The notes beneath the pieces are model-generated. The model searched no databases. It was not told the DNA's origin and saw nothing but the letters and a program-made list of their open reading frames with translations. The position numbers and the translations under genes were made by a program. DNA of 64,000 nucleotides from assembly GCF_001625215.2 (NCBI RefSeq), contig NC_030385.2:40883598-40947597 (forward strand), written 5' to 3'. This stretch comes from Daucus carota subsp. sativus. Taxonomy: Eukaryota; Streptophyta; Magnoliopsida; Apiales; Apiaceae. Positions 2,187 to 58,829 of this stretch are shown in pieces; position 1 is the stretch's first letter, and every line of letters begins with the position of its first letter.

Positions 2187-5100
2187 CTACAAGATGTCCC
2201 GAAGTTTGCGCATTCCAATCTTGTGTACTAACTTCTCGAAAGAAGATGTTGGAAGTGCTTTTGTAAACAAATCTGCTGGATTTTCACATGAGCGAATTTG
2301 ACAAACATTAATATCTCCCCTCTGCTGAAGTTCGTGAGTGAAGAAGAATTTCGGATCAATGTGCTTTGTTCGATCTCCTTTAATGTAGCCTTCCCTGGTC
2401 TGAGTGATACATGCTTCATTATCTTCGTAAAGAATAGTAGGAGTTCCTTTATTAACTGAAAGACCACATGATTCTCGAATATGATGGACCAAAGACCTTA
2501 GCCACACGCATTCCCGGCTAGTTGCATGTAGTGCCAATAATTCAGCATGATTCGAAGAAGTTGCTGCAAGAGTCTGCTTTGTAGACCTCCAAGATATTGC
2601 GGTATCACCATATGTGAATACATAACCTGTTTGAGATCTACCTTTGTGGGGATCAGACCGATATCCAGCATCTGCATGACCAACTAATTCAATTTTTGAG
2701 TCTTTAAAATAAAACAAACCCATATCCATTGTTCCTCGAAGATATCTAAATATTTGTTTCACGCCAGTCCAATGTCTTCGAGTTGGAGCAGAACTATGTC
2801 TTGCCAAAAGGTTAACAGAAAATGCAATATCGGGACGTGTACAATTGGCAAGATACATTAGTGCACCAATGGCACTAAGATATGGTACTTCAGGACCAAG
2901 AAGTTCTTCTCCCTTTTCTCTTGGGCGAAATGGATCCTTATTCTTTTCTAAGGATCGTACAACCATAGGTGTACTCACAGGATATGCCATATCCATAATA
3001 AACCGTTTCAGAATCTTTTCAATATATGAAGACTGGTGGACAAAGATTCCTTTAGATAAATGTTCAACTTGAAAACCAAGACAGAGTTTTGTTTTACCCA
3101 AGTCTTTCATTTCAAACTCTCTTTTCAAATATCCAATCGTCTCATGAAGTTCATTTGGGGTTCCACTGATGTTTAAATCATCAACATATACTGCAATGAT
3201 AGTAAACCCCAATTTTGTCCTTTTAATAAAAACACATGGACATATTACATTATTGGTATATCCATCTTTCAAGAGATATTCACTGAGACGATTGTACCAC
3301 ATACGACCCGACTGTTTCAATCCGTATAATGATCTCTGTAATTTAATTGAGTAAATCTCTCGGGGTCTTGAACTATATGCTTCAGGCATTTTTAACCCAT
3401 CAGGGATTTTCATGTAAATGTCACTATCGAGTGATCCATACAAGTAGGCAGTTACAACATCCATTAAATTCATTCGGAGCCTTTCTAGAATTGATAAACT
3501 TATTAAAAATCTGAATGTTGTTGCATCCATTACCGGGGAATAAGTTTCTTCGTAATCGATTCCCGGTCTTTGTGAGAAGCCTTGAGCAACAAGGCGTGCC
3601 TTGTATCTCACAATTTCATTTTTCTCATTTCTTTTACGCACAAATACCCATCTATATCCGACGGGTTTTATACCTGCAGGTGTTTGGACAATAGGTCCAA
3701 AAACTTGGCGTTTTTCAAGTGATTTCAGTTCAGCTTCAATAGCTTCTTTCCATTTTGGCCAATCATTTCTTCTTTTACATTCATAGATCGATCTAGGTTC
3801 ATGATCCTCGATTTCCTCAGAAATGTCAAGTGCAGCTGCATATGCAAATATATCATCCATGACAATTTCTTTTCTGTTCCACCTCTTTCCTAAAATGACA
3901 TAATTTATCGAGATCTCTTCATTGTCAACAATTTCAGGTGTTTGATCATCTTTGGAAGACGTCTCTTCAGTGATCAATTCTACGATGTCATTTGATGTTC
4001 CAGCTTTATTATCAAGTCTCCTTGTTTTTCTTGGAGTTTTATCCTTGGATCCAATAGGTCTACCACGCTTCAGGCGTGCTTTAGACTCATTTGCTAGCAT
4101 GATTTTATTATCTTCTTCAGGAAGTTTAATCTTACAAGGAACATTAACAGCTGGTATATGTGACTTTGTCACATTTTTGACATCAGTAAATGCATCAGGC
4201 AATCTATTTGCGACTTCTTGTAGGTGGATAATCTTTTGAACTTCAAGTTCACATTGATTTGTACGAGGATCATAATGAGACAGGGATACTGCATTCCATA
4301 AAATTTCTTGCTTTTCTTTTTCAAATTTTGTCTTATCTCCCCCTAATGCAGGAAAAATTGTCTCATCAAATTGACAATCGGCAAATCTTGCCGTGAATAA
4401 ATCACCAGTCTTGGGCTCCAAATATATAATAATTGAGGGAGAGTCAAATCCAATATATACCCCTAATCTTCTTTGGGGTCCCATTTTTGTTCGTTGGGGA
4501 GGGGATATTGGAACATAAACAGCACACCCAAAAATTTTCAAGTGAGAGATATTTGGTTCTTGACCATTTACCAGTTGCAGTGGGGAATATTTATGATAAG
4601 AAGTCGGTCTTAACCGAACTAAAGAAGCCGCATGTAATATTGCATGTCCCCAGGCAGTAGTTGGTAAATTTGTTCTCATAAGTAATGGTCTCGCAATTAG
4701 TTGTAGCCTTTTAATGAAAGACTCGGCAAGACCATTTTGAGTGTGTGTGTGGGCAACAGAATGCTCCACTTCAATCCCAATAGACATACAATAATCTTTA
4801 AAAGATTGGGATGTAAATTCTCCTGCATTGTCCAATCGTATTTTCTTTATATTATAATCAGGAAATTGTGCTCGTAATCGAATTATTTGAGCAAGGAGTC
4901 GTGCAAAAGCAACATTACGAGTGGACAATAAACTAACGTGTGACCATCTTGTTGATGCATCAATGAGTACCATAAAGTACTGAAATGGCCCACTAGATGG
5001 GGTAATTGGTCCACATATATCTCCTTGAATTCGCTCCAAAAATTTTGGGCATTCAATGGCAACTTTCACAGGAGATGGTTTTGTTATCAATTTTCCTTGA

Positions 5101-5645
5101 ATACAAGCAACACATGAAAAATCTTTGGACAATGGAACAATTTTATTTTTGAGCGGATGTCCATTTGAATTTTCAATAATTCTTCGCATCATTGTTGAAC
5201 CCGGATGGCCTAAACGATCATGCCATATAATAAAAATTTTCGGGTCAACAGAACTTTTATTAATAGTCATATGTGACTCAACTGGATTTATGAAAGTATG
5301 ATATAATCCAGAATTATATGATGGGAGTTTTTCTATCACATGTTTTCTCCCTAAGACTATAGTTGTGATACATAAATATTCATTATCACGCTCATTTGTT
5401 GTCTCAATATGATAGCCATTGTGGCGTATATCTTTAAAGCTCAAAAGATTTCTTTTTGATCGGGGGAAAAACATTGCATTTTCAATCAATAAACATGCAC
5501 CATTAGGTAGCATTATACTTGCTCTTCCGGAGCCTTCAATTATATCTGATGCACCCGATATTGTATTAACATTAGCTTTGGCTAATGTTAGATGCGAAAA
5601 ATATGCTTTATTTTTCAAAATTGTATGAACAAAATGATTCTTCAT
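2187..5645 (-). CDS. pol: copia pol polyprotein: integrase, reverse transcriptase, RNase H
   Basis: The 1152-codon open frame carries the enzymes that copy and insert the element. Domains in order: the C-terminal part of protease (about 1-80), GAG-pre-integrase and zinc-binding H142, H147, C178, C181, integrase catalytic triad D209, D272, E308, an AT-hook-like KRGRPIGSKDK near 526, reverse transcriptase with D729 and YVDD at 820-823, and RNase H at about 1010-1130 with a DEAG/EDN-type active site (AELLAL, YEDNEAC). All key polymerase, integrase and RNase H residues look intact. The start is not native: the ATG lies just after an in-frame TGA and replaces the usual VDSGATxH protease centre, so protease is inactive. 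RT and integrase might still be made, but not by normal gag-pol translation. Confidence 0.95.
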   Translation of the reverse strand: MKNHFVHTILKNKAYFSHLTLAKANVNTISGASDIIEGSGRASIMLPNGACLLIENAMFFPRSKRNLLSFKDIRHNGYHIETTNERDNEYLCITTIVLGRKHVIEKLPSYNSGLYHTFINPVESHMTINKSSVDPKIFIIWHDRLGHPGSTMMRRIIENSNGHPLKNKIVPLSKDFSCVACIQGKLITKPSPVKVAIECPKFLERIQGDICGPITPSSGPFQYFMVLIDASTRWSHVSLLSTRNVAFARLLAQIIRLRAQFPDYNIKKIRLDNAGEFTSQSFKDYCMSIGIEVEHSVAHTHTQNGLAESFIKRLQLIARPLLMRTNLPTTAWGHAILHAASLVRLRPTSYHKYSPLQLVNGQEPNISHLKIFGCAVYVPISPPQRTKMGPQRRLGVYIGFDSPSIIIYLEPKTGDLFTARFADCQFDETIFPALGGDKTKFEKEKQEILWNAVSLSHYDPRTNQCELEVQKIIHLQEVANRLPDAFTDVKNVTKSHIPAVNVPCKIKLPEEDNKIMLANESKARLKRGRPIGSKDKTPRKTRRLDNKAGTSNDIVELITEETSSKDDQTPEIVDNEEISINYVILGKRWNRKEIVMDDIFAYAAALDISEEIEDHEPRSIYECKRRNDWPKWKEAIEAELKSLEKRQVFGPIVQTPAGIKPVGYRWVFVRKRNEKNEIVRYKARLVAQGFSQRPGIDYEETYSPVMDATTFRFLISLSILERLRMNLMDVVTAYLYGSLDSDIYMKIPDGLKMPEAYSSRPREIYSIKLQRSLYGLKQSGRMWYNRLSEYLLKDGYTNNVICPCVFIKRTKLGFTIIAVYVDDLNISGTPNELHETIGYLKREFEMKDLGKTKLCLGFQVEHLSKGIFVHQSSYIEKILKRFIMDMAYPVSTPMVVRSLEKNKDPFRPREKGEELLGPEVPYLSAIGALMYLANCTRPDIAFSVNLLARHSSAPTRRHWTGVKQIFRYLRGTMDMGLFYFKDSKIELVGHADAGYRSDPHKGRSQTGYVFTYGDTAISWRSTKQTLAATSSNHAELLALHATSRECVWLRSLVHHIRESCGLSVNKGTPTILYEDNEACITQTREGYIKGDRTKHIDPKFFFTHELQQRGDINVCQIRSCENPADLFTKALPTSSFEKLVHKIGMRKLRDIL

Positions 5646-11891: not shown

Positions 11892-12090
11892 ATTAATAAC
11901 AACAGTGAGTTCAAGTCCCTAATGGTGTATACATTAATAACAACAGTGAGTTCAAGTCCCTGATGGTGTATACATTAATAACAACAGTGAGTTCAAGTCC
12001 CTGATGGTGTATACATTAATAACAACAGTGACTTCAAGTCCCTGATGGTGTATACATTAATAACAACAGTGAGTTCAAGTCCCTGATGTA
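11892..12090. repeat. 41-bp tandem repeat, five copies
   Basis: Units begin ATTAATAACAACAGTGAG at 11892, 11933, 11974, 12015 and 12056, spaced exactly 41 bp. Each holds GTGA(G/C)TTCAAGTCCCTGATG, a decayed half of the AGTGACTT palindrome found throughout the composite element. Confidence 0.95.
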
Positions 12091-12116: not shown

Positions 12117-13834
12117 ATCATCCATACTTACGGATGTTGAGGTCTAAATGTATCAGTGATATTATATGAATTTCAGAAGAAGAAAAATAACTCTATTTGT
12201 ATTGAGATTTTAGCAGTCAAGTAGTGGTTTGTTTGACTTATACTATTATCGTGTACTTTATCATGTATTACTGCTTACATTTTTTTAAAAAATATTTTTG
12301 GATGATCCAACCGTACGGATGTCAAGATTTATATATTTTGATGATATTAAAAAAATTTCAGAAAAATATAATTTTATTTGGATTGAGATTTCAGTAGTCA
12401 ACTAGTGTTTTGAGTTGTATTAGTATCTAGTGTTTTATCATGTATTACTGCTTACATTTTTTTAAAAATATTTCTGGATGATCCAACCGTACGGATGTGG
12501 AGATTTATATATTTTGATGATATAAAATAAATTTCATAAAAAAATAATTTTATTTGGATGGAGAGTTTAGCAGTCAACTAGTGGTTTGACTTGTACTAGC
12601 ATCTAGTGTTTTATCATGTATTACAGCTTACATTTTTTAAAAAATATTTCTGGATGATCCAACCGTACGGATGTGAAGAATTATATATTTTGATGATATT
12701 ATAAAAGTTTCAGAAAAAAATAATTATATTTGGATGGAGAGTTTAGCAGTCAACTAGTGGTTTAACTTGTACTAGCATCTAGTGTTTTATCATGTATTAC
12801 TGCTTACATTTTTTTAAAAATATTTCTGGATGATCCAACCGTACGGATGTGAAGATTTATATATTTTGATGATATTATAAAAGTTTCAGAAAAAAAATAA
12901 TTATATTTGGATGGAGAGTTTGGCAGTCAACTAGTGGTTTGACTTGTACTTGCATCTAGTGTTTTATCTTGTATTACAGCTTATATTTTTTAAAAACTAT
13001 TTCTGGATGATCCAACCGTACGGATGTGAAGATTTAGATATTTTGATGATATTAAAAAAGTTTCAAAAAAAAATAATTTTATTTGAACAGAGAGTTTAGC
13101 AGTCAACTAGTGGTTTGACTTGTACTAGCATCTAGTGTTTTATCATGTATTACAGCTTACATTTTTTAAAAAATATTTATGGATGATCCAACCGTACGGA
13201 TGTGAAGATTTATATATTTTGATGATATTATAAAAGTTTCATAAAAAAATAATTGTATTTGGATGGAGAGTTTAGCAGTCAACTAGTGGTTTGACTTGTA
13301 CTAGCATCTAGTGTTTTATCATGTATTACTGCTTACATTTTTTTAAAAATATTTTTGGATGATCCAGCCGTACGGATGTCAAGATTTATATATTTTGATG
13401 ATAGTAAAAAATTTTCAGGAAAAAATAATTTTATTTGGATGGAGAGTTTAACAGTCAACTAGTGGTTTGACTTGTACTAGCATCTAGTGTTTTATCTTGT
13501 ATTACAGCTTATATTTTTTAAAAAATATTTCTGGATGATCCAACCGTACGGATGTGAAGATTTATATATTTTGATGATATTAAAAAAGTTTCAAAAAAAA
13601 ATAATTTTATTTGAATGGAGAGTTTAGCAGTCAACTAGTGGTTTGACTTGTACTAGTAACTTGACATTTATCATGTATTTGTGTTTCTATTTTTTTGAAT
13701 AATTTTTCTCGATGATCCAACTGTACGGATGTCAAAGTCTATATATTTTGATGATATTAAAAAAGTTTCAGAAAAAAATAACTATTTTCCGTTTGAAATC
13801 TTAACAGTCAAATAGTGGTTTGACTTGTAAATGT
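12117..13834. repeat. 176-bp tandem array, left part (nine units plus a degenerate one)
   Basis: The landmark GATGATCCAACCGTACGGAT occurs at 12301, 12477, 12653, 12829, 13006, 13182, 13358, 13534 and 13711, giving periods of 176-177 bp. A diverged unit precedes it near 12117. Each unit also carries CAGTCAACTAGTGGTTTGAC and TCTAGTGTTTTATCATGTAT. The units are non-coding and AT-rich, with a monomer length in the range of plant satellite DNA. Confidence 0.95.
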
Positions 13835-13857
13835 AAGTAGTACAAAAATGACTTTCC

Positions 13858-14226
13858 GCGTCGCCCCTTAGCGTCGGTTAAAGACAAAACCGACGCTGTA
13901 GATACTTTTATGCGTCGGTCGGGCAAAATGCCGACGCTATAGGTTCACTTGTAGCGTCGGTCGGGAGAATGCCGACGCTATAGGTTCACTTGTAGCGTCG
14001 GTCCGGAGAATGCCGACGCTATAGGTTCACTTGTAGCGTCGGTCACGAGAATGCCGACGCTATAGTTTCACTTGTAGCGTCGGTCGAGCGAACGCCGACG
14101 CTATAGGTTCACTTGTAGCGTCGGTCCTCAGATGGCCGACGCTATAGGTTCACTTGTAGCGTCGGTCAAGAGAATGCCGACGCTATAGATATACTTGTAG
14201 CGTCGGTGAAGAGAATGCCGACGCTT
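13858..14226. repeat. Left subterminal CACTA repeats (41 bp)
   Basis: Units of the form GTAGCGTCGGTC...GAATGCCGACGCTATAGG, each able to pair AGCGTCGG with CCGACGCT as a hairpin. These are likely transposase-binding sites by analogy with En/Spm. Confidence 0.9.
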
Positions 14227-15190
14227 TAGATTTTATATTTATTTAAAATTATTTTATTTTATATAATTTTATAACTATAATTTAACATATGATTATATGT
14301 ATAATCTAGTTTTAATATTTTAATTGAAATTATATCGCATATGATAAAACTAAAAATTCGAAATATTTCTTATTAAAAATATAATCTTATAATTCAATTA
14401 AATTAAATTATATATGTATATATATTGTAATTTAAAAGTATATCTTTTAAAATTTTAATATTCAATTATATATAATGTAATTTTAAAACTTTAATTTTAT
14501 AATATATATGTATATATATATATATATATGTATATGTATGTATGTATGTATCTCTAATTATAATTATATCATATAAATATAATTAAAAATTTTAAATATT
14601 TATTATCAATATTATATGTTATAATTATAATTATAATTTAATTAAATTATGCACATTCTATTTTAAAATTATATATTTATTATAAATATAAAATTATATT
14701 ATATAAAATATAAATTTTAAATTATAAATAAAATTGTATTATATATAATACAAATAGAATACTCCCTCCGTCTCCCGGGATAGTATACATTGGGGGACCG
14801 GGAAGCTGCACGGACTTTAATGCTCCTGTAAAGAATAGTTGCGCAATTCATCTTTAAAATTTTCTTTTTCTTGAATTAATATTTAGAAGTTAAATTTTTA
14901 TTCATAAATTTTTTTTAAAAGTTTTTATTAATAACTTAATCTTATAATTTAAATTAATGAAATTTCATATATTATATATAATTTAAAAATATATTTGTTA
15001 TTATTATCTTAAATTTACTTTTATATTATTTAGTTTTAAAATTAAAAGAGATTTAATATTATTTTAAAATTGTGATATAATTTATAGTTTAAAATATATA
15101 TTATAAATATAATCATATTTAATATAATATAAAGAAAAATATATTATATAATTCACTTTTAAAATTATAAAAAAAATATAAAAAAAAAAT
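14227..15190. other. AT-rich interior of the CACTA element
   Basis: Very AT-rich with (TA)n and TATG runs near 14500-14550. A Stowaway-like end, CTCCCTCCGTCTCCCGGGA, begins at about 14762; its partner end was not found. No coding signal. Confidence 0.5.
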
Positions 15191-15219
15191 TTGAATAACT
15201 AAACTATAGGATAGGATTT

Positions 15220-16440
15220 ATACGAGAGTGCTAGGCTGTCAGGTGCTGGTGGCCTGGTATACACACGTTCGCCTCACAGAACTTCTCAGCAAACTGTCGA
15301 CTCAAAGAGTCAAAATACCTAATTCACTCTCCATCCAATCATCCATGATCCATCAGTGATCAATCTTTTTTCAGTTTCCCACTCTCGATCTCTTCTCGCT
15401 TTTTCCACTCAATGTCACTTTCCCTTTTCGATATCTTGGTGGATGGCGGGATCGATTATTCTACAGGTTCACTAGATTGCGCGGCTTCCCAAACTGATTC
15501 GGATGCTTAATTACGGGATTAATTAATTGATTTCACAGATGGATTGCTGGGCTTCTTGTATCGGTACTTTTCTATATCCCCAAATTTAGGGATCAGTCTG
15601 AAAAATTGCATCTAGGTTTTGTTTTAGTATTGATTCTTGATGGGTTTGAGTTTGGTGTACTGTTTGATGTTGTTAATTTTATTCTAGTCATGTGATGATG
15701 TTTTGTGAAATGGGCATTTGTTGTTAACTCGATTAATTAGTGACGATGATTTTACTTGGCTATACTGTTTATTTTGTTTTTTTGACTTCTGATGTACTTG
15801 GCATTTCTGTCAATGTTATCGTCCACTGTAGGAATTTAAGCATAAGCCTGAGTAATTGAATCTGTCGTGTAGGAATAATTGTGCGAAGTTTACCTTTACT
15901 TTACAGTAAGAGATAAGTTGGAATATGAAGTAGGACTGTTCAAGAATGATAGTTTATTGAAGCAACGAATATGAAATCTGATCACATGAGTTGATGCTTG
16001 TCACGGGTGAAAATTTGAAGTATAAAAGTTTTGAGGATAAGTTCAACTTGGTTCCAGACACAAAAGTATTGCTACATTGTGTTTACAATTTTCAGAGCTT
16101 TGAAAAGTCAGAAGACTTGACTTATAGAACCAAGGTTAATATAGTCTTGTAAATACAATTCAGCTTTACTATTTGTTTGGAAAAGTCCGAAGCAATGCTA
16201 ACGCCTACACGCATAATTAATTAGATCATCAACTTTTATGCATCATATTTCTTTTCCTCTCGAGAATTATTATTTTTATTGTGATCACACATTTGAATGG
16301 CTATTCATGTTTTTGGCTGTTTTGTACACAGGGGTATGGTATGACTGAGACAAATATGATTAGTGGTGTTGGTCAATCTGGTATATCTTCTGCTAATGGC
16401 ACAATGATGCCGACTCCTGGAATGGGTCAACAAGGACAGT
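15220..16440 (+). pseudogene. Captured gene leader and exon, possibly HAC-type acetyltransferase
   Basis: 15220-15560 is less AT-rich, resembles a plant 5' leader with pyrimidine tracts, and ends at a donor-like TCG|GTACTT. The segment 16332-16438 is bounded by ACAG and GTATTT and reads GYGMTETNMISGVGQ...SSANGTMMPTPGMGQQGQ. The (I/M)PTPGM phrase resembles repeated motifs in the N-terminal part of plant p300/CBP-like HAC proteins. That is recalled similarity over about 15 residues, so the parent is uncertain. Exon-like pieces at 16640-16740 and 16815-16970 were not identified. The fragments cannot encode a complete protein. Confidence 0.4.
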
Positions 16441-17742
16441 ATTTAAACTTCTTTACTGTATTAGTGCTTGCTTCGGTTAGTGTATTTCTTCTTCTCATTC
16501 TCATTTTGCCAACTATAATTTTGATATTATCATCCTCATTTGTTATCTGAAAAGATAGATACATCTATATTTCCACACATGAAATAAATTATAGAGCTCT
16601 GGCTCCTATATAGGAGTATCTGTCTAGCTGTTTATTAGCAAGTATTGCAAGGACTAATTCAAATAACTTTGGAAGGTACCAAAACCTCAGTTCGGCCTTG
16701 CTGGTATAATGTGGGTAGCTTTCGCCGAGAGCAAACAGGTATGTCACCTTGCTGTAGTTATATGTGCAATTTATATATGTTCATTATTCTTGTATTTAAC
16801 TTTCATTGTTTTAGATCTATTAAGGGATTTTTGCCCGGTAAAAGCTGTGAATGCATCAAGAAATGTGGACACTGAAAACTGCATGGTCAACTAATAGATA
16901 CAGTTTATTAGTGAGAAAGTTGCTTGTTTGGCTTATGCTCGAATCCAGGGTAAGGCAGCCCTTGCACCCAGTTGCTTGCTCTTGTGCTTTCTTTTTTCTT
17001 GTGTATTAAGTTGAGGTTTTCTCTTGCAGCTTCTCTTATCATCTTGGAAGAGATATATTATACCGGGTATATGTGGCATTCTTGCGGGTTCTTTATATCA
17101 GTTAAATTTTTTTTTACATCCGAAAATTGAAGGTGATCCAGGACTTTTAACATGTTCCATATACTAATACTATGGGAATACTTCTACTTTCATTTTTATA
17201 CATATTTTGTTATAGCTCTGTTAGTTTTTTAAAGAAGAAGGAAGTGAACTTTAGATTAAATAATAATGTTAGTGGCATCAGTCTTATCTATTCTTCATAT
17301 GTATCGAGAATAAAACATTAAGTAATCAAGACTATGTCACTTGAACTCGGCTGATAGTGTCCAAGTGACAAGCTCGACAACATATTTTAAATTTGCCCTG
17401 TTAAGTAAATAAAGGGTAACTATTTTTATCACAGGCTTTCTGGTGCATCTTCTCTCCTGTTTTTAGTCCCCTTCTTAGTCCGCTTTGCTTACATATTTCC
17501 TATCTTTAGAAATAAGCTTACTTATATAAGGTGGAACAAGTGAATGTTTATCACACGCTTTCTGGTGCATCTCCTATCCTGTTTTTTGTCCCTTTTATCT
17601 TTCTTTGTTTTTTTTTTAAAAACAACTTTTGTTGCACATCATACAATGGTAATATATTGCTAATGATATTGGTTTAATATTTCCTCACTGTAATTATATT
17701 GGACTGCAGACTTATTTACAATGTGACTTCTCTTATATGCAG

Positions 17743-17811
17743 AAGTTGCCTCAGTTCCCATTACCCACTCACAATGTTGTTGTGAGAGGACATTCTCCGC
17801 GGGAATTTGAG
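17743..17811 (+). pseudogene. Captured chromomethylase (CMT) exon
   Basis: A 69-nt segment bounded by ATGCAG and GTATGT encodes 23 residues, KLPQFPLPTHNVVVRG followed by HSPREFE. The (K)LPxFPLPTH(D/N)VVVRG phrase is characteristic of the catalytic region of plant chromomethylases such as CMT3, which methylate cytosines in CHG context. Exon-intron borders are kept, so genomic DNA rather than cDNA was captured. No catalytic PCQ/ENV motifs lie nearby, so it is only a fragment. Confidence 0.72.
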
Positions 17812-18034
17812 GTATGTTTCTACTTGTGTAAACTCCTGTAGAATTTAAGGCTGCCTTTTTATTGGTTTTGGTTACTTGGTGATAAAAATGTAAACTTGTG
17901 TACTCTTTTCAGTCCAACCTGCTTTTATGTTGCCATGTGTACTATTTTAGTCCAGCCTCCTTTATGCAATAGTATGATGCTGGCTTTGCAGAGATCTGAA
18001 AAGTTACAACCTCACTTACATTCATTATTTTTAG

Positions 18035-18237
18035 ATCTTCGTGCAACATATCAAGACATTGCTTTCGGGGCTTAAATTATGCACTAGTTTCCGTCGCAAA
18101 GGAGCATCCTAGTTATGGAACAGCTTTGTCTTCTGTGATTGAGGGAAAGAACGAAGAAATGTCTAACACCTGAGCTGTCTGGTGGAGCAAGAATTCATTA
18201 TATATTCCAATTAATATTTGTGAAGAGTTTGGAGATG
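18035..18237 (+). pseudogene. Captured dynamin-related protein 3 (DRP3) fragment
   Basis: After an acceptor-like TTTTTAG the plus strand reads IFVQHIKTLLSGLK. After a frame change it reads YALVSVAKEHPSYG, then IEGKNEEMSNT, and after another change ELSGGARIHYIFQ and FVKSLE. These are consecutive blocks of the middle/stalk region of plant DRP3-type dynamins, the GTPases that divide mitochondria and peroxisomes. At least two frame breaks and an internal deletion make it non-functional. A roughly 60-bp duplication follows (18192-18252 against 18256-18318). Confidence 0.85.
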
Positions 18238-18459
18238 TTCTTAGTGTAATAAAAAAATTCATTATATATAACAATTAATATGCGTGAAGAGTTTGGAGAT
18301 GTTTCTAATGTAATAAACTAGGTAATATTTTTTTATTAATAAGATCGAGTTGTTTATTCATTTCTCTCATGTAATTTGAGCACATTCTTATGACCGTGGT
18401 GAATTGTCAAAAGCTTACACCAAAATAAAAATATTATTATTATTAAAAAGAACACTTTA

Positions 18460-18820
18460 GGCGTCGGCATTTGAGACAGCTGACGCTATAGGTAAGGGCT
18501 ATAGTGTCGGCATTTCAGACAGCCGACGCTATAGGTAAGGGCTATAGTGTCGGCATTTCTGACAGCCGACGCAGTAGGTTAGGCTATAGCGTCGGTATTT
18601 CAGATAGCCGACGCTATAGATAAGGGCTATAGCGTCGGCATTTCAGACTGCCGACGCAATAGGTTGGGATATAGCATCGGCATTTCAGATAACCGACGCT
18701 ATTGTCAAGACAATAGCGTCGCCTACTTAACCGACGCTAAAGGCATATACCTATAGCGTCTCCTACATTTGCTACGCCACTTAACCGACGCCTTAGGGGT
18801 TATTTGACCGACGCTGAAAG
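18460..18820. repeat. Right subterminal CACTA repeats (about 43 bp)
   Basis: Units CAGCCGACGCTATAGGTAAG followed by GGCTATAGTGTCGGCATTTC, in inverse arrangement to the left block. The motif core GCGTCGG is shared with 13858-14226. Confidence 0.9.
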
Positions 18821-18837
18821 TCCATTCTGTACTAGTG

Positions 18838-20330
18838 AGTTTAGCAGTCAACTAGTGGTTTGACTTGTACTAGCATCTAGTGTTTCATCATGTATTACAG
18901 CTTACATTTTTTAAAAAATATTTATGGATGATCCAACCGTATTTATATATTTTGATGATATTATAAAAGTTTCATAAAAAAATAATTATATTTGGATGGA
19001 GAGTTTAGCAGTCAACTAGTGGTCTGACTTGTACTAGCATCTAGTGTTTTATCATGTATTACTGCTTACATTTTTTTAAAAATATTTTTGGATGATCCAA
19101 CCGTACGGATGTGAAGATTTATATATTTTGATGATATTATAAAAGTTTCAGAAAAAAAATAATTATATTTGGATGGAGAGTTTGGCAGTCAACTAGTGGT
19201 TTGACTTGTACTTGCATCTAGTGTTTTATCTTGTATTACAGCTTATATTTTTTAAAAACTATTTCTGGATGATCCAACCGTACGGATGTGAAGATTTATA
19301 TATTTTGATGTTATTAAAAAAGTTTCAAAAAAAAATAATTTTATTTGAACAGAGAGTTTAGCAGTCAACTAGTGGTTTGACTTGTACTAGCATCTAGTGT
19401 TTTATCATGTATTACAGCTTACATTTTTTAAAAAATATTTATGGATGATCCAACCGTACGGATGTGAAGATTTATATATTTTGATGATATTATAAAAGTT
19501 TCATAAAAAAATAATTGTATTTGGATGGAGAGTTTAGCAGTCAACTAGTGGTTTGACTTGTACTAGCATCTAGTGTTTTATCATGTATTACTGCTTACAT
19601 TTTTTTAAAAATATTTTTGGATGATCCAGCCGTACGGATGTCAAGATTTATATATTTTGATGATAGTAAAAAATTTTCAGGAAAAAATAATTTTATTTGG
19701 ATGGAGAGTTTAACAGTCAACTAGTGGTTTGACTTGTACTAGCATCTAGTGTTTTATCTTGTATTACAGCTTATATTTTTTAAAAAATATTTCTGGATGA
19801 TCCAACCGTACGGATGTGAAGATTTATATATTTTGATGATATTAAAAAAGTTTCAAAAAAAAATAATTTTATTTGAATGGAGAGTTTAGCAGTCAACTAG
19901 TGGTTTGACTTGTACTAGTAACTTGACATTTATCATGTATTTGTGTTTCTATTTTTTTGAATATTTTTTCTCGATGATCCAACTGTACGGATGTCAAAGT
20001 CTATATATTTTGATGATATTAAAAAAGTTTCAGAAAAAAATAACTATTTTCCGTTTGAAATCTTAACAGTCAAATAGTGGTTTGACTTGTAAATGTAAGT
20101 AGTATTTTATCATGTATTGTCGTTTCAATTTTTTTTGAAAATATATCTCGATGATCCAACCGTACGAATGTCAAAGTTTATATATTTTGATGGTATTAAA
20201 AAAGTTTTAGAAAAAAATAATTTTTTTTCGTTTGATATTTTAACAGTCAACTAGTGGTTTGACTTGTATTTTGGTTATTTGTAAGTAAAATTATTTTTCA
20301 AAAATATGTCTGGATGATAATAAAAAATAT
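18838..20330. repeat. 176-bp tandem array, right part (eight units)
   Basis: Landmarks at 18927, 19091, 19268, 19444, 19620, 19796, 19973 and 20150; the 164-bp step comes from a 12-bp deletion after CCAACCGT in the first unit. The first seven units match left units 12653-13711 one for one, including private variants (GATCCAGCCG at 13358 and 19620; ACTGTACGGAT at 13711 and 19973). A further unit follows at 20150. Confidence 0.95.
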
Positions 20331-20572: not shown

Positions 20573-21335
20573 TCATGTCAGTGACTTAAAGTCACTAGTA
20601 TTTACTTGGAATTTTTTTTTCCCGTGTCGCTTATTTTTTATTTGAGATTCTTTCCAAACCTCTAAATCAATCTCCAAAATTACAACAGTGACTTGAAGTT
20701 ACTGATTTTCTTTACTTAATTTTTTTTTCAAGATTACGCATTAGTGACTTCAGCTCACTAATGTTCTTTACTTAATTTTTCCAGCCCTCTAGTTTTGGGG
20801 AGCTACTTTAACGATTTCATCAGTGACTTAAGGTTACGAATATTCCCAGAATTACATTAGTGACTTCAAGTCACTGATGTTTTTGACTTAGAATTTTTTC
20901 CAGCCCTCTAGTTTTGGGGAGCTACTGTAACGTTTTCATCAGTGACTTAAGATCACGGATATCCCCAGAACTATAACAGTGACTTGAAATCACTGATGTT
21001 CTTTACTTAAAAAATTTTCCACCGCTCTAGTCTTGGGAGCTAATATAACGATTTCATTTCATTAGTGACCTTAATTATGATTTTTTTACTAGGTAGTTGG
21101 GGTGTTGGTACATTGTTGGCTGATGTAAATTAGATGCAACATCAGTGATCTCATGTCACTGAAGGTGAGAGGGATAATACCGACATTTTAGGTTTTCGCT
21201 CAACATCAGTGACTTCCAGTCACTGATTAGTGACTTGAAGTCACTAACGTAGCTATTTAATCCTTTTTTCATGCGTCCGGAAGATCATGTCACTGATGTA
21301 CTTCATTTAATGCACACCATTAGTAACTTCAAGTC
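20573..21335. repeat. Cluster of AGTGACTT-AAGTCACT palindromes
   Basis: About a dozen variants of CATCAGTGACTT(A/G)AAGTCACTGATG occur here, for example near 20578, 20687, 20743, 20856, 20937, 20973, 21141, 21203, 21225 and 21310. A phrase with CCAGCCCTCTAGTTTTGGGG recurs between them (about 20783 and 20900). Two more palindromes lie at the left end of the composite. They may be protein-binding or replication-related sites of the element, which is inference. Confidence 0.85.
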
Positions 21336-21433
21336 ACTGATGGTGTACACCTACCTTTCCTGTACAATTGTGTACATGTAACCGGCCCTCTATTTACCTT
21401 TATAATGTTCTTCTAGCCACCAGGTACTTAACA

Positions 21434-28314: not shown

Positions 28315-28959
28315 TCTCCATCTTCTAGAAACATCTTTTCCTTTGCTCCGATCCTGAAAACAGAAACAAACAAAACAAGACATAAATTAATACAAGAAAA
28401 TCAATAAATCATATATATGTATATAAATATTTGGAAATTTCATAAATATATAAAAATAATGAATCTAATAAAAAAGCAAAATCGAAAGGAGTATATCTAT
28501 TAAAATAGAGAGAAATAAAATCATGAAGAAATAATAACCAAAGGAAAGTCCCTTGCTTAGACACATAAAACTTAATTATTTAATCGAAAAATAAATAATA
28601 GATATTAAAACATAATTAAATATAACATATATAGTAACCATCAAAATGGTAACACAAGTCATGAAAATGGCACCCAATCAGGAAATAAATACAGAAGGTC
28701 ATGATTTTAATTGAGGTTGATTATGTAAATACAGGGGGTCATTTCAATTAAAACTCACCACACAATATTATGTACAATAAACTACAAAATTATGTACACC
28801 AAACATTTTCTATCTTTTAAAGGTATATATGTTTGGATGCCCGAAGTCTCACAAACGTCTCATTTCGGTAGTTTAGTTGATCAACTATCATCTCTCAACC
28901 CCCTGTCTCCGATATTGATCTGCATCTTCAGCTCTCAGACCACAGTTCCAATAGGATTC
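28315..28959. other. Upstream region of the first CYP76 gene
   Basis: No separate gene. 28880-28959 is similar to the stretch just upstream of the CYP76 copies ending at 57044 and 62534 (ATATTGATCTGCATCTTCA, CTCTCAGACCACAGTTCC). It belongs to the duplicated CYP unit and probably serves as 5' leader. The frame stays open back to an ATG at 28792. Confidence 0.6.
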
Positions 28960-31900
28960 ATGGATACAATTTTGATCAGTGTAGCCATGTGCATCCTGCT
29001 AGCCTTTACTCTCCGCTTCTTCCGAAGAATTATAAGCAAAGCTCCTCAAAAACTTCCACCAGGACCTTATCCTTTGCCCATCATCGGAAATATACACAAA
29101 CTAGGCAAGCTCCCTCATAAGTCCTTAAACAATCTTGCTCAGGTTTACGGTCCCATCATGCGTCTGAAATTAGGCCGTGTAACCACCATAGTCATTTCTT
29201 CATCAAGCGCAGCTCAACAAGTCCTCCAAAAGCAAGATTTGGCCTTCTCTAATCGTCTTGTTCCCGATGCTACACGCGGTTCTGACCATCACAAGTACTC
29301 AGTAGTATTCTTGTCTGTCGGTAGTCGGTGGAGAAGTTTAAGAAAAATTACGACCTCATGTATACTTGCAGCCAACAAGCTCGATGCAAGTAAGCATATA
29401 CGAAGTAGGAAGGTGCATGAGCTTATTGGCTACTGTAACACGTGTAGCCAGATTCGTGAGGCTGTAGACATTGGTAGTGCTACATTTTTAACTTCGCTTA
29501 ATCTTTTGTCCAACACTATATTTTCAAAGGATATGATAGATTTGTATCAGGATACCGAGGAGGGTAAAACCTTCAGGGAGTTGGTGTGGAACTTGATGGT
29601 TGAGGCGGGTAAGCCTAATTTGGTAGATTTCTTTCCTATTTTTAAGTGGATCGATCCACAAGGTGTAAACCGGCGAGTTGCTGGTTATTGTGAGAAGCTA
29701 CTCGAGTTGTTTGATGGTTTGATAAATGAGCGCTTGGAGTTGAAGAGATCGGGAAATTCCAGTGAGAAGAGTACAACAGACGTGCTTGATGAACTGTTAA
29801 CGATGTTACAAACAAATGAGATGGACAAAACTCAAATCCAACACCTGTTTGTGGTAAGTTTCATATACTTTTCTTTTTCGAGAAGTGTTTCTTTCATCCT
29901 TGCTGTTCATTACTAGTAACCTAATGCTCGTTATTACAAGAATTCTCAATCGTTTTTGTTTAAGGATTAGTACTTAGTAACTCATCTAACTATAATATAC
30001 TCCCTCCGTCCGGCCCGGAGGTTCACTGTTTGCACGCGGCTATTATAAAATATAGTTAAATAAAGTTTTTTTTTATAAAAGTTTAAACGTCAAATTTTTT
30101 TTTACATTTTTCTGAAAAAAAACATTATGAAACTATATTTTATATGAGTTTTAAAATACGTGCAAAAAAGTAGCATTAAAAACTGATGAGACGGAAGGAA
30201 TATCTTTTATACTCTCTCGGTTCCATTCATTTCTCGACCATTATGGATATAACAGGTAGGGCTGAGCAAAACCGAACCGAACCGAAATAACCGAACCGAA
30301 CCGTACAAATTCGGTTCGGTTTGGTTTGGAAAATTTTAAAATTCCGGTTAGTCCGGTTTTCGGTTATAACCGAATTAAAATTTCGGTTCGGTTCGGTTTT
30401 TGAAAAGTATAAGTTCGGTTTAACCGAAATAACCGAAGTTTTTTTACATATATATGTTTTTAAATTATATTTATGTATAATATTATTGATATTTATATTT
30501 AATAATAATAATACATGAGTAAAGTATTAGATATCAGATTTGCTTTGCCTTGCGCCTCCATTCTCCGACTTGCTCTTCCGGTTTGCCGACTTCCAGTTCA
30601 ACTTTCAAGCTTCACATCTGTTTAATGGTTGGATCTGCTTTATTCTCTTAACATTATTCATGTTCTGATTTCCTTTAAGTATTAAAGTATTCTGAATCAC
30701 TTGGCTAGTGGAATTGACTTGTCTGATGAACTCGTATTGTTTGTGATTTCTGATATTGATACGCGGAAACACTGATTAGTTCTGAGAATATGAAGCACAA
30801 GGATGAAAAACATGAAGTTCGGTTTTTCTTTAACCGAACCGAAAAAACCGAAGTATTTTTCGGTTCGGTTCGGTTCGGTTTGAAAACGAAGTACGGTTCG
30901 GTTCGGTTTACAAAAATTAGAAATTTCGATTTTCGGTTATTTCGGTTCGGTTCGGTTTTCGACCGAACGTTTGCTCAGCCCTAATACAGGTACCACCATC
31001 TTATTATTCTTAAACTCTGTTGGTCAATGGAGGAAGTATATGGTATCGTAGCTTTTAAGTTACTAACTACACCATAATATTAAATTATTATAACGTGAAA
31101 CCTTGATATACCATGCTAAAATGGTAACGTGTCCCCTCATTAGAAAAGACTATTTTCGAGATCAAAGAAAGGAACACTACTGCGCCAGCTAGGACCCTAA
31201 CTCAAGATTTGCTGGGATTTTGTTCTCGTACACTTGAATATATTAAAAGCATCCTATATTCCTATCTTGGAATTTATATCATGTTCATATGATAATACGT
31301 ATGATGTACCCAGCAGTCTGAGATTTTCAAAATCCAAAATCATTAATACTTAATACACATTTGCAGGACTTGTTTGTTGCAGGAACAGATACAACTTCAA
31401 GTACAGTGGAATGGGCAATGGCTGAGATATTACGAAAGTCAGAAACAATATTAGTCAAGGCGAAAGCTGAGCTGAACCAAGTGATTGGAAGAGGAAAGAT
31501 TATTGAAGAAGCGGACATATCTAGGTTGCCTTATTTGCAATGTATTGTGAAAGAAACTTTAAGACTGCATCCACCGGCTCCTTTCTTAGTACCTCGCCAA
31601 GTACAAGAAGATGTCCACCTCTGTGGCTACACTATTCCAAAGAATTCGCGAATTCTAGTCAATGCATGGACTATCGGACGTGATCCCCTGATATGGAAAA
31701 ATTCCTTGTCATTTCAACCGGAGAGGTTCCTGGACTCTGAAGTAGTTGACGTGAATGACCATGATTACGAGCTAATTCCATTTGGTGCAGGTCGAAGGAT
31801 ATGTCCGGGATTGCCATTGGCCATGGGGGTGGTGCCAGTGATGTTGGGCTCCCTCATAAATTGTTTTGACTGGATACTCGAAGGTGGAATTGCAGGAGAG

Positions 31901-31987
31901 GAAGTGGACATGGAGGAGAAGTTTGGGGTCACTCTAGCAAAGCTTCATCCGTTTCGTGCTGTACCAACTCTAGTTGTAGGCTTGTAG
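28960..31987 (+). CDS. Cytochrome P450, CYP76 family (geraniol 8-hydroxylase-like), intact
   Basis: Two exons, 28960-29853 and 31367-31987, joined in phase 0 (HLFV|DLFVAGTDT; GT/AG borders GTAAGT and TTGCAG), give 504 residues, normal for the family. Visible motifs: N-terminal membrane anchor (residues 2-22), proline hinge KLPPGPYPLP, I-helix AGTDTTSS, ExxR at 361-364, PERF at 416-419, and heme loop PFGAGRRICPG with C444. CYP76 enzymes are ER-anchored monooxygenases, many acting on monoterpenols such as geraniol; some act on coumarins or herbicides. The substrate here is unknown. The start is the MDTILI methionine, shared by the paralogues, not the ATG 56 codons upstream. The 1513-bp intron holds several MITEs. 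Paralogues lie at 54831-63612 on the other strand. Confidence 0.93.
29998..30202. mobile_element. Stowaway-type MITE in the CYP76 intron
   Basis: CTCCCTCCGTCCGGCCC at 30000, weaker right end GAGACGGAAGGAA at 30200, TA on both sides. About 201 bp. Confidence 0.75.
30209..31040. mobile_element. Stowaway-like MITE split by a hAT-type element
   Basis: TACTCTCTCGGTTCCATTC on the left and GGTCAATGGAGGAAGTA on the right look like the ends of a diverged Stowaway-type unit whose middle is interrupted by 30257-30983. Confidence 0.5.
30249..30990. mobile_element. Non-autonomous hAT-type element in the CYP76 intron
   Basis: TAGGGCTGAGCAAA (30257) and TTTGCTCAGCCCTA (ending 30983) are perfect inverted ends. 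Flanks ATAACAGG and ATACAGG are a near-perfect 8-bp duplication with one base lost. Subterminal zones are filled with CCGAACCGAA/TTCGGTTCGG. No transposase. Confidence 0.85.
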
Positions 31988-33742: not shown

Positions 33743-35149
33743 ATGAACAATCACAATGAGGCACAAAAGCAAGCAACACAGAGTGAAGTGATAGTAGTGA
33801 TCATTCCTTTTCCTACACAAGGCCATCTGAACCAGCTCCTCCACCTCTCCCGTCTCGTCTCGTCGTACTATATTCCGGTTCATTATGTCACCACTCCTAT
33901 CCACTGCCGCCAGGCCAAGCTCAGAATCCAGGGCTGGAACTCCCTCTCAAGTCCCCTGATTAATTTTCATGAATTTTCAGTGCCTGCTTTCGACTCCCCT
34001 CCTGCGAACCCACACTCTGCCTTCCAGTTCCCTTCACATCTTGTACCATCTTTTTTCTCCGCCTTGCACCTCCGAAAACAAGTAGCTCAACTACTATCAG
34101 CTCTGTCTGAAACCACCAAAAGGGTTGTCGTAATTTATGACTATCTGATTCCCTATGTTGGTCAAGATGTGGCCTCTTTGCCAAATGGAGAGGCCTATTG
34201 TTTTCATCCCCTCTCAGCTTTTCGGACATTCTGTGAAACAGTGGGGGAATCCCGTTTTGAAATTATCGATGATCATCTTATAAAACAGCTTCCTTGTGTA
34301 GCACCTACTCTCAGTTCAGAAGTCATGGAATTCTTTTCTAAGCAGCGTGAGGATCTTGTTCAGTACAGCTCGGGTGCACTTTTCAATACCTGTAGAGCAA
34401 TCGAAGCTCCATTTCTTGATGTGCTAGCCGAAGAAAAGGGCAGACAGTGGGCTATTGGACCATTCAACCCATTGAAAATATTCAAGCCTAAGGATCCATC
34501 TCACGGACGCCACAAATGCTTGGAGTGGCTAGACAAACAAGTTCACGAATCTGTAATGTATGTTTCTTTCGGGACAACAACTAGTTTAACAGACGACCAA
34601 GTTGAGAGCCTTGCCATTGGCCTTGAAAAAAGTGGTCAAAAGTTCATTTGGGTGCTGCGTGATGCGGATAAAGGAGACATATTTTTAGACGATGTGAGAG
34701 CATATAAGTTGCCAAATCATTACGAAGAAAGATTAGAACTAAACGGACAGGGAATGATAGTGAGAGATTGGGCGCCTCAGTTGGAGATTTTGGCGCATGC
34801 TTCTACCGGAGGATTTATGAGTCATTGCGGATGGAATTCATGTATGGAAAGTATTACGATGGAAGTGCCTATAGCAACATGGCCAATGCATTCTGATCAG
34901 CCTCACAATGCCTTGTTAGTGACGGAGGTTCTTAAAATCGGAGTTGTGGTCAAGGACTGGGAGAGTAGAGATAAGTTAGTGGAGTCATTGACGATTGAGA
35001 ATGCTGTTAGAGAGTTGATGGCATCGGAGAAAGGAGAAGTGATAAGGAAGAGAGCAGTAGTGTTGGGTTCGGCTGTCAAGAGATCTGTTGCCGATGGTGG
35101 TGATACTCACGTAGAGATTGATAACTTCATTGCTCACATACGAAGATAG
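33743..35149 (+). CDS. UDP-glycosyltransferase, UGT93/zeatin O-glucosyltransferase-like
   Basis: An intronless frame of 468 residues, the usual length. Family 1 plant UGTs transfer glucose from UDP-glucose to a hydroxyl of a small molecule in the cytosol. [20 protein letters not shown] with catalytic His28 and the overall pattern point to the UGT93/zeatin O-glucosyltransferase group, whose members act on cytokinins and also other compounds, so the substrate is not fixed. The 44-residue PSPG sugar-donor box runs from W343 to Q386, with HCGWNS and terminal DQ intact. Odd: the near-invariant Gly of the ESxxxGVP segment is Glu at 374 (MEVP), whereas the sister gene at 38757 has Gly. It is closely similar to that sister and to the broken copy at 37111. 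Confidence 0.92.
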   Translation: MNNHNEAQKQATQSEVIVVIIPFPTQGHLNQLLHLSRLVSSYYIPVHYVTTPIHCRQAKLRIQGWNSLSSPLINFHEFSVPAFDSPPANPHSAFQFPSHLVPSFFSALHLRKQVAQLLSALSETTKRVVVIYDYLIPYVGQDVASLPNGEAYCFHPLSAFRTFCETVGESRFEIIDDHLIKQLPCVAPTLSSEVMEFFSKQREDLVQYSSGALFNTCRAIEAPFLDVLAEEKGRQWAIGPFNPLKIFKPKDPSHGRHKCLEWLDKQVHESVMYVSFGTTTSLTDDQVESLAIGLEKSGQKFIWVLRDADKGDIFLDDVRAYKLPNHYEERLELNGQGMIVRDWAPQLEILAHASTGGFMSHCGWNSCMESITMEVPIATWPMHSDQPHNALLVTEVLKIGVVVKDWESRDKLVESLTIENAVRELMASEKGEVIRKRAVVLGSAVKRSVADGGDTHVEIDNFIAHIRR

Positions 35150-37993: not shown

Positions 37994-38756
37994 ATATTTG
38001 TCTTGCAGTGTGTGGTCTTGCGATTGAAATGCCAATGGATCTATGTAATTTTTCATCAAATTAAGTTATGCAAAATAAAAAATAATAATTGGAAGTCATG
38101 ATTTTATATTAAAATCATCAAATATTTGATTTCGAACTATAAACCAGTTAAATTCGCTTCTGAACTCCAGTAATAATCCGCTTCTGAAATTTTCATCCTT
38201 GTATAAAGCATTTTATATCTTCTGAAACTCTGTGACTCTGTGATAGATTCCACAGACTTGTTTCAATCCACCAGGACCACCAATAATTCAATCGAATTCA
38301 TTTTTTCAAAATGAATTATAAAAATTCAGATATTTTGCACATATTACAAAATATAATATGAATTACAAAATTTACATATTTAGGCACATTTGTGACCTCA
38401 ACTTCTTTATTCATACACGTGTGAATAGAGAAATGCACTTCGAGAAGAAATTGACGGAATCTAGATGGCCTATATTCAGTTTCAGACAGCAGCTCATGTT
38501 GGGCCTTTAATGGCCACAATACCGTTGATACTTCCTTTTCTTAATAATTGATCAAACAAAAACAATAATTGAGATACTGCTAATAATTACATTTATAAAT
38601 ATTGTCAACGCTTCTTGGTTTATAAACGAACACTTATATATTGACATCCCAGAGTTCCTTGATCTGTATAGTTTATCTCAAGTTACAGGTTATTCTAAAA
38701 CCTCAAGTGCCACCGCTACATTGATTTAAAGAAAGTTGAGAATAAAAAACTTGAGA
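37994..38756. other. Intergenic DNA before the second UGT gene
   Basis: No gene seen. The clear upstream block found before the other UGT copies is missing here. Confidence 0.45.
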
Positions 38757-40163
38757 ATGAGCTGTAACAATGAGGCACAGAAGCAAGCAACAGAGAGTGA
38801 AGTGGCCGTAGTAATCGTTCCTTTCCCTGCACAAGGCCATCTGAACCAGCTCCTCCACCTCTCTCGTCTCGTCTCGTCGTACAATATTCCGGTTCACTAT
38901 GTGACCACTGCTATCCACTCTCGCCAGGCCAAGCTCAGAGTCCAGGGTTGGGACTCTCTCTCAAGTCCCCTGATAAATTTTCATGAATTTTCGGTGCCTG
39001 CTTTCGACTCTCCTCCTGCTAATCCGCATTCTGCCTTCCAATTCCCTTCGCATCTTGTACCGTCTTTCTATTCTGCATTACATCTTCGAAAACATGTGGC
39101 TGAACTACTGTCAGCTCTGTCCACCACTGCCAAAAGGGTTGTCGTAATTTATGACTATCTGATTCCTTATGTTGGTCAAGATGTGGCCTCATTGCCGAAT
39201 GGAGAAGCCTATTCTTTTCATCCCCTCTCAGCTTTTCGTATATTCTGTGAAACAGTGGGGGAATCAGGCTTTGAAACCATCGATGATCAGGTTGTGAAAC
39301 AGCTTCCTAGTATACTATCTACACTCAGTTCAGAAGTCATGGAATTTTTTTTAAAGCAGCGGGAGGATCTTGTTCAGTACAGCTCTGGTGCACTTTTCAA
39401 TACGTGCAAGGCAATCGAAGCTCCATTCCTAGATGTGCTTGCAAAAGGAAACGAAAAACAATGGGCTATCGGTCCATTTAACCCCATGGATCTACGCAAG
39501 GCCAGGGATTCATCTTACGTGCGCCACAAATGCTTGGAGTGGCTAGACAAACAAGTTCGTGAATCTGTAATATATGTTTCATTCGGGACAACAACTAGTT
39601 TAACAGACGACCAAGTTGAGAGCCTTGCCATTGGGCTAGAAAAAAGTGGTCAAAAGTTCATTTGGGTACTGCGTGATGCGGATAAAGGAGACATATTCCT
39701 TAATGATGTAAGAGCATATAAGTTGCCAAATCATTACGAAGAGAGATTAGAACTAAACGGGCAAGGTATGATAGTGAGAGATTGGGCGCCTCAGTTAGAG
39801 ATTTTGGCTCATTCATCTGTTGGAGGATTTATGAGTCATTGTGGATGGAATTCATGTTTGGAAAGTATTACAATGGGAGTGCCTATGGCAACATGGCCTA
39901 TGCATTCTGATCAGCCTCACAATGCTTTGCTGGTGACTCAGGTTCTTAAAATCGGAGTTGTGGTCAAGGATTGGGAGAGTAGGGATAAGTTGGTGGAGTC
40001 ATCGACGATTGAGAATGCTGTTAGAGAGTTGATGGCATCAGAGAAAGGAGAAGATATAAGGAAGAGAGCAGCAGAGTTGGGTTCGGCTGTCAAGAGATCT
40101 GTTGCTATAGGAGGCGATACTCGTGCTGAGATTGATAACTTCATTGCTCACATACAAAGATAG
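38757..40163 (+). CDS. UDP-glycosyltransferase, UGT93/zeatin O-glucosyltransferase-like
   Basis: An intronless frame of 468 residues starting MSCNNEAQKQ. This ATG is chosen because it aligns with the start of the gene at 33743; the frame is open a little further but only from TTG. Function class and cell location are as for the sister gene: cytosolic glucosyl transfer to an unknown small acceptor, with cytokinins one candidate. Catalytic His is in AQGHLNQ, and the PSPG box starts at W343 with HCGWNSCLES and MGVP intact and ends in DQ. All hallmark residues are present, so this is the best candidate for an active enzyme in the cluster. It differs from the sister mostly at 190-270, the acceptor-facing half. 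Confidence 0.93.
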   Translation: MSCNNEAQKQATESEVAVVIVPFPAQGHLNQLLHLSRLVSSYNIPVHYVTTAIHSRQAKLRVQGWDSLSSPLINFHEFSVPAFDSPPANPHSAFQFPSHLVPSFYSALHLRKHVAELLSALSTTAKRVVVIYDYLIPYVGQDVASLPNGEAYSFHPLSAFRIFCETVGESGFETIDDQVVKQLPSILSTLSSEVMEFFLKQREDLVQYSSGALFNTCKAIEAPFLDVLAKGNEKQWAIGPFNPMDLRKARDSSYVRHKCLEWLDKQVRESVIYVSFGTTTSLTDDQVESLAIGLEKSGQKFIWVLRDADKGDIFLNDVRAYKLPNHYEERLELNGQGMIVRDWAPQLEILAHSSVGGFMSHCGWNSCLESITMGVPMATWPMHSDQPHNALLVTQVLKIGVVVKDWESRDKLVESSTIENAVRELMASEKGEDIRKRAAELGSAVKRSVAIGGDTRAEIDNFIAHIQR

Positions 40164-43860: not shown

Positions 43861-44670
43861 GGCGATATCACACAATTTCAATTCAACATCAGATCCGTGC
43901 CTAATCGCTTCTCAATCATCTCTCTAGGTATATATCTACACTCCTTTACACATATACTCATGTTTTATTTTATTCTCACTGTTTTTAATTTTGTGACTTT
44001 TGATTATTAGGGTTTGGTTTTTATAATTCATAATCGCTGAGTCTCTCTCTCTACTTTTGTCAACTCGGACCGAGTACACTCAGGTACGAGTCAGTTATCA
44101 GTCATGTTTAATTTCAATTTCGTGGAATCTACATTTTGTGTTTAATTTGAATTTCGATGTTTATGTATGTGTGTGTAATTATATGACATGGTTTTGATTA
44201 ATTTGAGGGGATATAGTTCTAGTTGTAGGCGCTGATTATGTTTTTTTGACCTTGATTTGATTTTGTCTGTTTCATAATTTATTGTATATGTGTTGGGGTG
44301 CGTGGTTGTGTTGATTTTTTGATGATTTACTAGTAATACATTGAAGCGAAATGTGAAATTTAACGTATGTGATTGTGTGTATGGAAATTGTTTTATTAAT
44401 TTTAGATTCACGAGGAAGGTTTGTCGGTTTTGAATTAAAATCTATATACTTATGGAAATATGTTAATGTGAGATGTCAAATTTCAATACTAAGGATTTGG
44501 TGTTTTTGACCTGAACATATTATTTCTCAATTTGGATGATTGATATTAATAATTTGGTATGCTCTACAGGTCAATTTATTTGTGTGAAAGCAGAAAATCA
44601 GTTAATTTAGGGGTAGTTTTCTATTTGGGATTGGGGAGGTATTGTTTTGCCTGTTTCAAAGTGGGAGTGG
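43861..44670 (+). other. Probable 5' leader and leader intron of the EPCR gene
   Basis: A donor-like CTCTAG|GTATAT at 43927 and an acceptor-like CTCTACAG at 44569 would frame a leader intron of about 640 bp ending 101 bp before the ATG. This is inferred from the splice signals only. Confidence 0.45.
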
Positions 44671-58729: not shown

Positions 58730-58829
58730 AGATATAAATACATAAAAGAAGGTACATATTATGAGGCTCTCAGCCTCTTATTAGAGTTTACCAATGTAAA
58801 GGAGCAGGTGACTATCTAATATCCTAATA

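Follow-up and report, generated by a model that had tools for sequence, protein, structure and literature searches.

A probable Pack-CACTA transposon of Daucus carota carrying sense-strand DNA of ten host genes

Pack-MULEs and gene-carrying Helitrons shuffle gene fragments from multiple donors and give rise to chimeric transcripts; they use ends and transposases of other kinds. The element family described here differs from both in its 3-bp target site duplications (TSDs) and CACTA ends. Host-gene DNA is described in several CACTA systems. Tgm-Express1, a soybean CACTA element in the wp allele, carries five unrelated gene fragments in about 5.7 kb, and splicing of its exons yields chimeric transcripts (PMC1947982). 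The Tpn1 family of Ipomoea nil is non-autonomous; its ends are conserved while the interior is replaced by host genes (PMC5105172). Of the Pack-TYPE elements of maize, it is the Pack-CACTA elements that hold the most distinct loci (PMC8903248), and in Chenopodium the gene fragments of CACTA elements sit in the 5' part (PMC8978399). For Arabidopsis Pack-CACTA elements the published model is tandem insertion followed by aberrant excision (PMC13317346, PMC8903248); PMC13317346 adds that unlinked genes might be captured by a further mechanism yet to be discovered.

The window analysed here is a stretch of 64,000 nucleotides (C5:40883598-40947597; C and L numbers denote contigs and loci). It contains what is very probably a Pack-CACTA transposon, non-autonomous, with cargo captured at the DNA level and probably acquired by gap repair. 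Like Tgm-Express1, this is a CACTA element with unrelated gene fragments in which exons and introns are retained; splice sites of the soybean element are usable. Unlike Tgm-Express1, it holds DNA of ten named donors in 5.0 kb; the genome has it in four near-full copies, alongside a sister element whose cargo indicates an order of capture, and it is known from sequence alone. Cargo orientation, small RNAs and silencing are not mentioned in the available portion of PMC1947982. Tpn1 resembles the window element, by description only, in having captured host genes between conserved ends. The Pack-CACTA elements of Arabidopsis and maize share with it CACTA ends, genic cargo and several loci per element (PMC8903248); in contrast to those elements, no element ends lie between the captures here, and the tandem-excision route of that paper consequently fits poorly. 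The window element is thus gene shuffling of a known type in an exceptionally cargo-rich form, and nothing found lies outside the known kind.

Searches were made at the DNA level against the same genome (441,086,747 bases, 11 contigs), and the resulting counts are lower bounds. Three near-full copies, L009 on C8, L010 on C3 and L011 on C9, align with the window element end to end (L011 in two blocks); read at their termini, all three start with CACTAGTACA and end with TGTACTAGTG. Together with the sister element L012, also on C3, they form a set of four related elements, all of which have CACTAG...CTAGTG ends and 3-bp TSDs (GTT in L009, CTT in L010, AGT in L011 and ATT in L012). The CACTA...TAGTG terminal inverted repeats of the superfamily are present in L009-L012 and, in the window copy, at the 3' end only. 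Short subterminal repeats in both orientations, also typical of the superfamily, are present. GCGTCGG-type motifs occur at 13871-14218 and 18461-18808; none was found between 14218 and 18461, nor in the interiors of five other elements examined. A Helitron, which has neither TSDs nor terminal inverted repeats, was considered and rejected, as both are present.

The four copies differ pairwise by 0.8-2.6% overall and by 0.9-1.9% in the cargo; L010 and L011 are the closest pair, followed by the window copy and L009. About 460 bp of extra DNA at approximately 2132-2589 of L011, in the AT-rich part, is probably a later insertion. A 22-nt pattern from the 5' end has 16 exact matches in the genome; the pattern misses L009 and the window copy, and this number is not a total for the family. 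The same cargo is found in all four copies, three of which have their own TSDs, which indicates mobilisation as a unit after capture. The cargo is copied host-gene DNA: the ten matching host loci still stand elsewhere, from which it follows that copying took place at the DNA level, introns included. Capture through cDNA is rejected because intron flanks are present in the cargo. No open reading frame of 130 aa or more is listed between window positions 5645 and 28792, in a listing that ignores introns. Features of the element, its flanks and its sister are collected in Table 1.

Table 1. Features of the window element, its flanking array and the cargo of sister element L012 (window positions).
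Feature	Position	Strand	Match or donor	Basis or remark
176-bp tandem array, left copy	12564-13842	+	98.4% identity to 18838-20104	
Probable non-autonomous CACTA (Pack-CACTA) element	13838-18837	+		End-to-end alignment with L009, L010, L011
5' subterminal repeats	13869-14229	+		41-bp unit, GCGTCGG
Leader-like segment	15254-15590	+		32-codon ORF at 15412-15510
Pyroglutamyl-peptidase gene fragment	15591-15798	+	C2:26713405-, 83%	Peptidase_C15 exon 5 kb downstream of match, same strand
Pectinesterase gene fragment, from downstream of first exon	15833-16038	+	C6:14195325-, 90%	PMEI and Pectinesterase profile matches
AMP-binding (4CL-like) ligase, intron and exon start	16036-16351	+	C5:2952824+, 93%	PF00501 profile match
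48-codon open exon, in-frame fusion of AMP-ligase, MED25 and KMS1-like	16332-16475	+		
MED25 exon fragment	16350-16438	+	C8:30810201-, 98%	Med25_VWA match (one listed) 3.1 kb upstream, same strand
VTT-domain gene, exon, intron, exon	16436-16713	+	C8:26880772+ (best donor), 87-94%	PF09335 match below family cut-off; related stretches at several other loci
68-nt fragment outside named donors	16749-16816	+	C2:46113167+, 88%	
Mei2-like gene fragment, two pieces	16815-16973	+	C1:48632200-, 90-92%	PF04059 (RRM_2) profile match
Rhomboid-like gene fragment	16960-17392	+	C6:33975943-, 88%	No match in profile search of donor
SDR gene fragment, two pieces	17385-17635	+	C2:31975332+ (91%), C2:31976028+ (69%)	Identity weak: weak SDR matches, 69% for larger piece
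Chromomethylase fragment, intron, 69-nt exon (17743-17811), intron	17633-17873	+	C2:41160153+, 95%	
Dynamin-related gene fragment, two pieces joined at 18116-18118	17892-18241	+	C6:22792775+	Local alignment of 17892-18118 and 18116-18241
3' subterminal repeats	18461-18808	+		43-bp unit
3' end CTAGTG of element	18832-18837	+		
176-bp tandem array, right copy	18838-20104	+		Out of register from element's 3' end
L012: P5A-type ATPase gene, two pieces		sense	96%	
L012: O-fucosyltransferase (O-FucT) gene, between the two P5A-ATPase pieces		sense	86%	
L012: RING gene		sense	86%	Profile just below family cut-off
L012: EF1-beta-like and TPLATE-like genes		sense		Open frames and likeness

The cargo of the window element traces to ten named donors on C1, C2, C5, C6 and C8, packed in 2.7 kb and all (10/10) in the sense direction. 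Matches reach E <1e-20 for nine of the ten and 4.8e-14 for SDR, the weakest. Donors were assigned from genome DNA searches and local alignments, and their identities, except for the rhomboid-like gene, from profile or structure matches; in some cases the matching locus may be a paralogue of the true donor. The VTT-domain donor is presumably KMS1-like, and we take the rhomboid-like donor to be RBL18-like. Weaker or repeated matches of the window searches were set aside, including some dozen VTT-like stretches elsewhere in the genome, C4:24300135 and C4:24293762 (38 nt), C9:40683694, C5:1494658 and C2:53513531/52501773. The skips within single donors (KMS1-like, Mei2 and dynamin) could be deletions that followed capture.

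An initial annotation of this DNA had proposed a Pack-CACTA element with three captured pieces from several unrelated loci in one orientation, spanning 15220-18237. The class of element is confirmed by the ends and TSDs of the related copies, the subterminal repeats and the host cargo; so are the unrelated sources and the single orientation, and a search of the host's own genome recovered parent loci of the fragments elsewhere. The number of pieces and the extent were both underestimated. The stretch 15220-16438, read as a leader plus exon of a HAC-type acetyltransferase, has a different origin: 16350-16438 matches the MED25 locus on C8, with AMP-ligase and VTT/KMS1-like sequence on either side of it in one exon, and the leader is a separate unit. 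No gene donor for the leader was found in the same-genome DNA search. Two other CACTA-type loci contain parts of it, namely L025/L039 and L040 (end pattern at C5:22382721; 72% match to part of the leader), and the leader is therefore probably either a 5' exon native to the family or an early capture. L025 (C8:4403601) was rejected as a donor gene for the leader, since a CACTA 3' end of the same orientation (L039) is present about 2.6 kb from it; L025/L039 is more likely another element of this CACTA kind.

The chromomethylase (CMT) piece contains exactly one CMT exon with AG/GT borders, just as had been annotated. This 69-nt exon is identical to the host CMT gene on C2 at 67/69 nt in the window copy and at 69/69 in L010 and L011. 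The catalytic exon of the donor matches PF00145 at E 7.9e-19, and its joined exons score about 213 bits against PDB entries 4fsx, 7ubu and 9mvy, compared with 95 bits or less for the other 39 sequences listed; profile and PDB scores together identify the C5-methylase domain of the plant CMT group. The PDB label of the three entries reads methyltransferase 1 only; we take 4fsx to be the maize chromomethylase ZMET2. A second CMT locus, L015 on C6, is more distant (198/223 positions, 88.8%).

A DRP3 dynamin stretch had been annotated at 18035-18237; its dynamin-related origin holds, while the piece is larger than had been thought. Exons of the C6 donor match Dynamin_M (PF01031), one clearing the family cut-off and the other falling short of it. 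The dynamin central region is present in the donor by profile, and a second comparison, with a query that was approximate in its first letters, agrees. Between its two parts the piece omits about 1.1 kb of the donor, including at least one exon, and it contains a frame-breaking 11-nt deletion common to L016-L018. Those three loci were considered as dynamin genes and rejected, since they are CACTA elements distantly related to this one that share the 11-nt deletion; at the 3' end their identity to the window element is no more than 75-77%. Further pieces of L016, L017 and L018 match other genome loci.

L012 has the ends and the CMT piece in common with the window element, and the dynamin piece in part; no other shared cargo was found at the threshold used. 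It has five further assigned donors, all in sense and all 5' of the CMT piece. Its two P5A-ATPase pieces are about 1.2 kb apart in their gene. Two donors, presumably EF1-beta-like and TPLATE-like, have no useful profile or PDB match. Among 31 match rows for L012, donors are given only to P5A, O-FucT, RING, EF1-beta-like, TPLATE-like and CMT. On the CMT donor locus (L014) the captured piece spans 4619-4894 in L012 and 4654-4894 in the window element; the 3' breakpoint is common to both lineages, and the 5' side is 35 nt longer in L012.

All 15 assigned donors of the two elements are in the sense orientation (15/15), a count that covers neither the 68-nt window piece nor L012 pieces without an assigned gene, such as rows C7:28842147, C6:11957131 (84%) and C2:1761544. 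Profile or structure evidence backs twelve of the 15 to some degree, with VTT, SDR and RING falling under the curated cut-offs; RBL18-like, EF1-beta-like and TPLATE-like are identified from open frames and likeness. In the simplest history, the dynamin piece would be older than the CMT piece, as L016-L018 carry dynamin with the same deletion; CMT would come next, after which each of the two lineages would have gained genes of its own on the 5' side. The pattern points to capture in rounds that placed fresh DNA upstream of older cargo; the 5'-ward order is judged from two lineages. Such nested, datable cargo makes a testable case, in which sister elements log successive captures against donors in one genome.

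How the cargo was assembled can be explained in several ways. Most probably the element is moved by a transposase supplied in trans and gained DNA in successive gap-repair rounds; repair synthesis would have switched between unlinked templates, and new material would have been joined 5' of older cargo. A more tentative proposal is that the family shows a way of capturing unlinked genes distinct from tandem excision: in each round of gap repair with template switching, sense-strand DNA of transcribed genes would be joined 5' of a retained 3' block (dynamin as the oldest piece, CMT next and lineage-specific cargo last), and the element would grow like a stack whose history is written 3' to 5'. 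Gap repair is favoured by the absence of element ends between captures, by the O-FucT piece that sits inside the split P5A gene in L012 and by the sense orientation of every assigned donor. Clean exact overlaps (3, 2 and 3 nt) are found at 3/9 scored junctions and none at the other six, where later substitutions may have removed them; the scarcity of clean overlaps and the reliance on only two lineages count against gap repair. Sense-only cargo could equally result from selection against antisense or polyadenylating cargo, and this raises the question of whether selection is responsible or the capture process is itself directional. Tandem insertion and aberrant excision, in which two neighbouring elements enclose chromosomal DNA and a hybrid element results once per capture, has the published Arabidopsis model in its favour, but it is an unlikely source of this cargo: ten donors from five contigs lie side by side, no subterminal motif separates the captures, and the P5A / O-FucT / P5A order in L012 is hard to reach by this route. 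That all pieces are one ordinary host gene, or similar to other loci by chance, is extremely improbable, given separate donors on five contigs, the E-values of nine of the ten and the intact element ends of three sister copies; CMT and dynamin donors were both found, at separate loci, rather than no CMT match or a single normal host gene.

DNA methyltransferases such as CMT silence CACTA-class transposons, and a piece of such a gene within this transposon class makes a reasonable though unproven subject for small-RNA studies. With L014, the four copies and L012 have 84-113 21-mers in common (simple words dropped) and exact runs of 54-108 nt, long enough in principle for 21-24-nt small RNAs to match. 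The CMT piece is also one of two captures retained in both lineages, and epigenetic conflict as a general idea is already in print (PMC8978399). A counter-defence, in which element transcripts would give rise to small RNAs that lower CMT and the piece would be kept for that effect, is nevertheless very improbable: the assigned cargo is sense, no inverted CMT copy is found among the 25 longest inverted-repeat pairs, and the dynamin piece is also kept and is more widespread. With about ten unrelated captures, one silencing gene among them is unremarkable, nothing sets CMT apart from the other donors, and the presence of a methyltransferase fragment calls for no special explanation. A priori, small RNAs against CMT are unlikely. 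If the element were transcribed, its retained splice sites would be expected to produce chimeric RNAs or, within an intron, extra exons, as in Tgm-Express1. It is still less probable that such a transcript, or the AMP-ligase/MED25/KMS1-like exon, is translated and useful as a new host gene. The peptide of this exon joins GYGMTET from the AMP-ligase, NMISGV...PGMG from MED25 and QYLNFFTVLVLAS from the KMS1-like gene; its 48 codons are open in 4/4 copies, and splicing to a 21-codon exon at 16676-16738 would preserve the phase in the window copy. Yet two in-frame junctions would arise by chance in about one case in nine, and the open exon alone is accordingly no sign of selection; the read-through frame past it differs in L010 and L011, and the dynamin part is frame-broken by the shared deletion.

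The window copy is damaged at its 5' terminus, which is without the first CAC. The junction falls in TAGTA, which is common to the element and to the flanking 176-bp array. No 3-bp TSD is present in this copy, and its flanks are rearranged: they form the seam of a tandem duplication and therefore do not show a clean target duplication. A tandem duplication with one breakpoint at the 5' end of the element would explain the seam, and its position there is as expected for a transposon-end break joined to a sister array copy. The array flanks the element on both sides (window 12178-13829 and 18941-20268). Outside both array arms are repeats with motifs like GTGACTTCAAGTCACTGATG (window 11892-12088 and 20739-21350), an arrangement which suggests that array and Pack-CACTA element are nested in a larger transposon.

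Several other features are present elsewhere in the window. A 1152-aa open frame on the minus strand (2187-5645) resembles, by eye, a Copia-type retrotransposon polyprotein, and an open frame at 44647-45996 has an Enhancer of polycomb-like domain (PF10513). Cytochrome P450-like open frames lie in two orientations at 28792-31987 and 54831-62666; PF00067 is found in 3/3 of those scanned, and the remaining frames are assigned by likeness. Two UGT-like genes are located between the P450-like groups, at 33743-35149 (PF00201) and 38736-40163 (likeness only); the P450-like and UGT-like genes possibly form a metabolic gene cluster.
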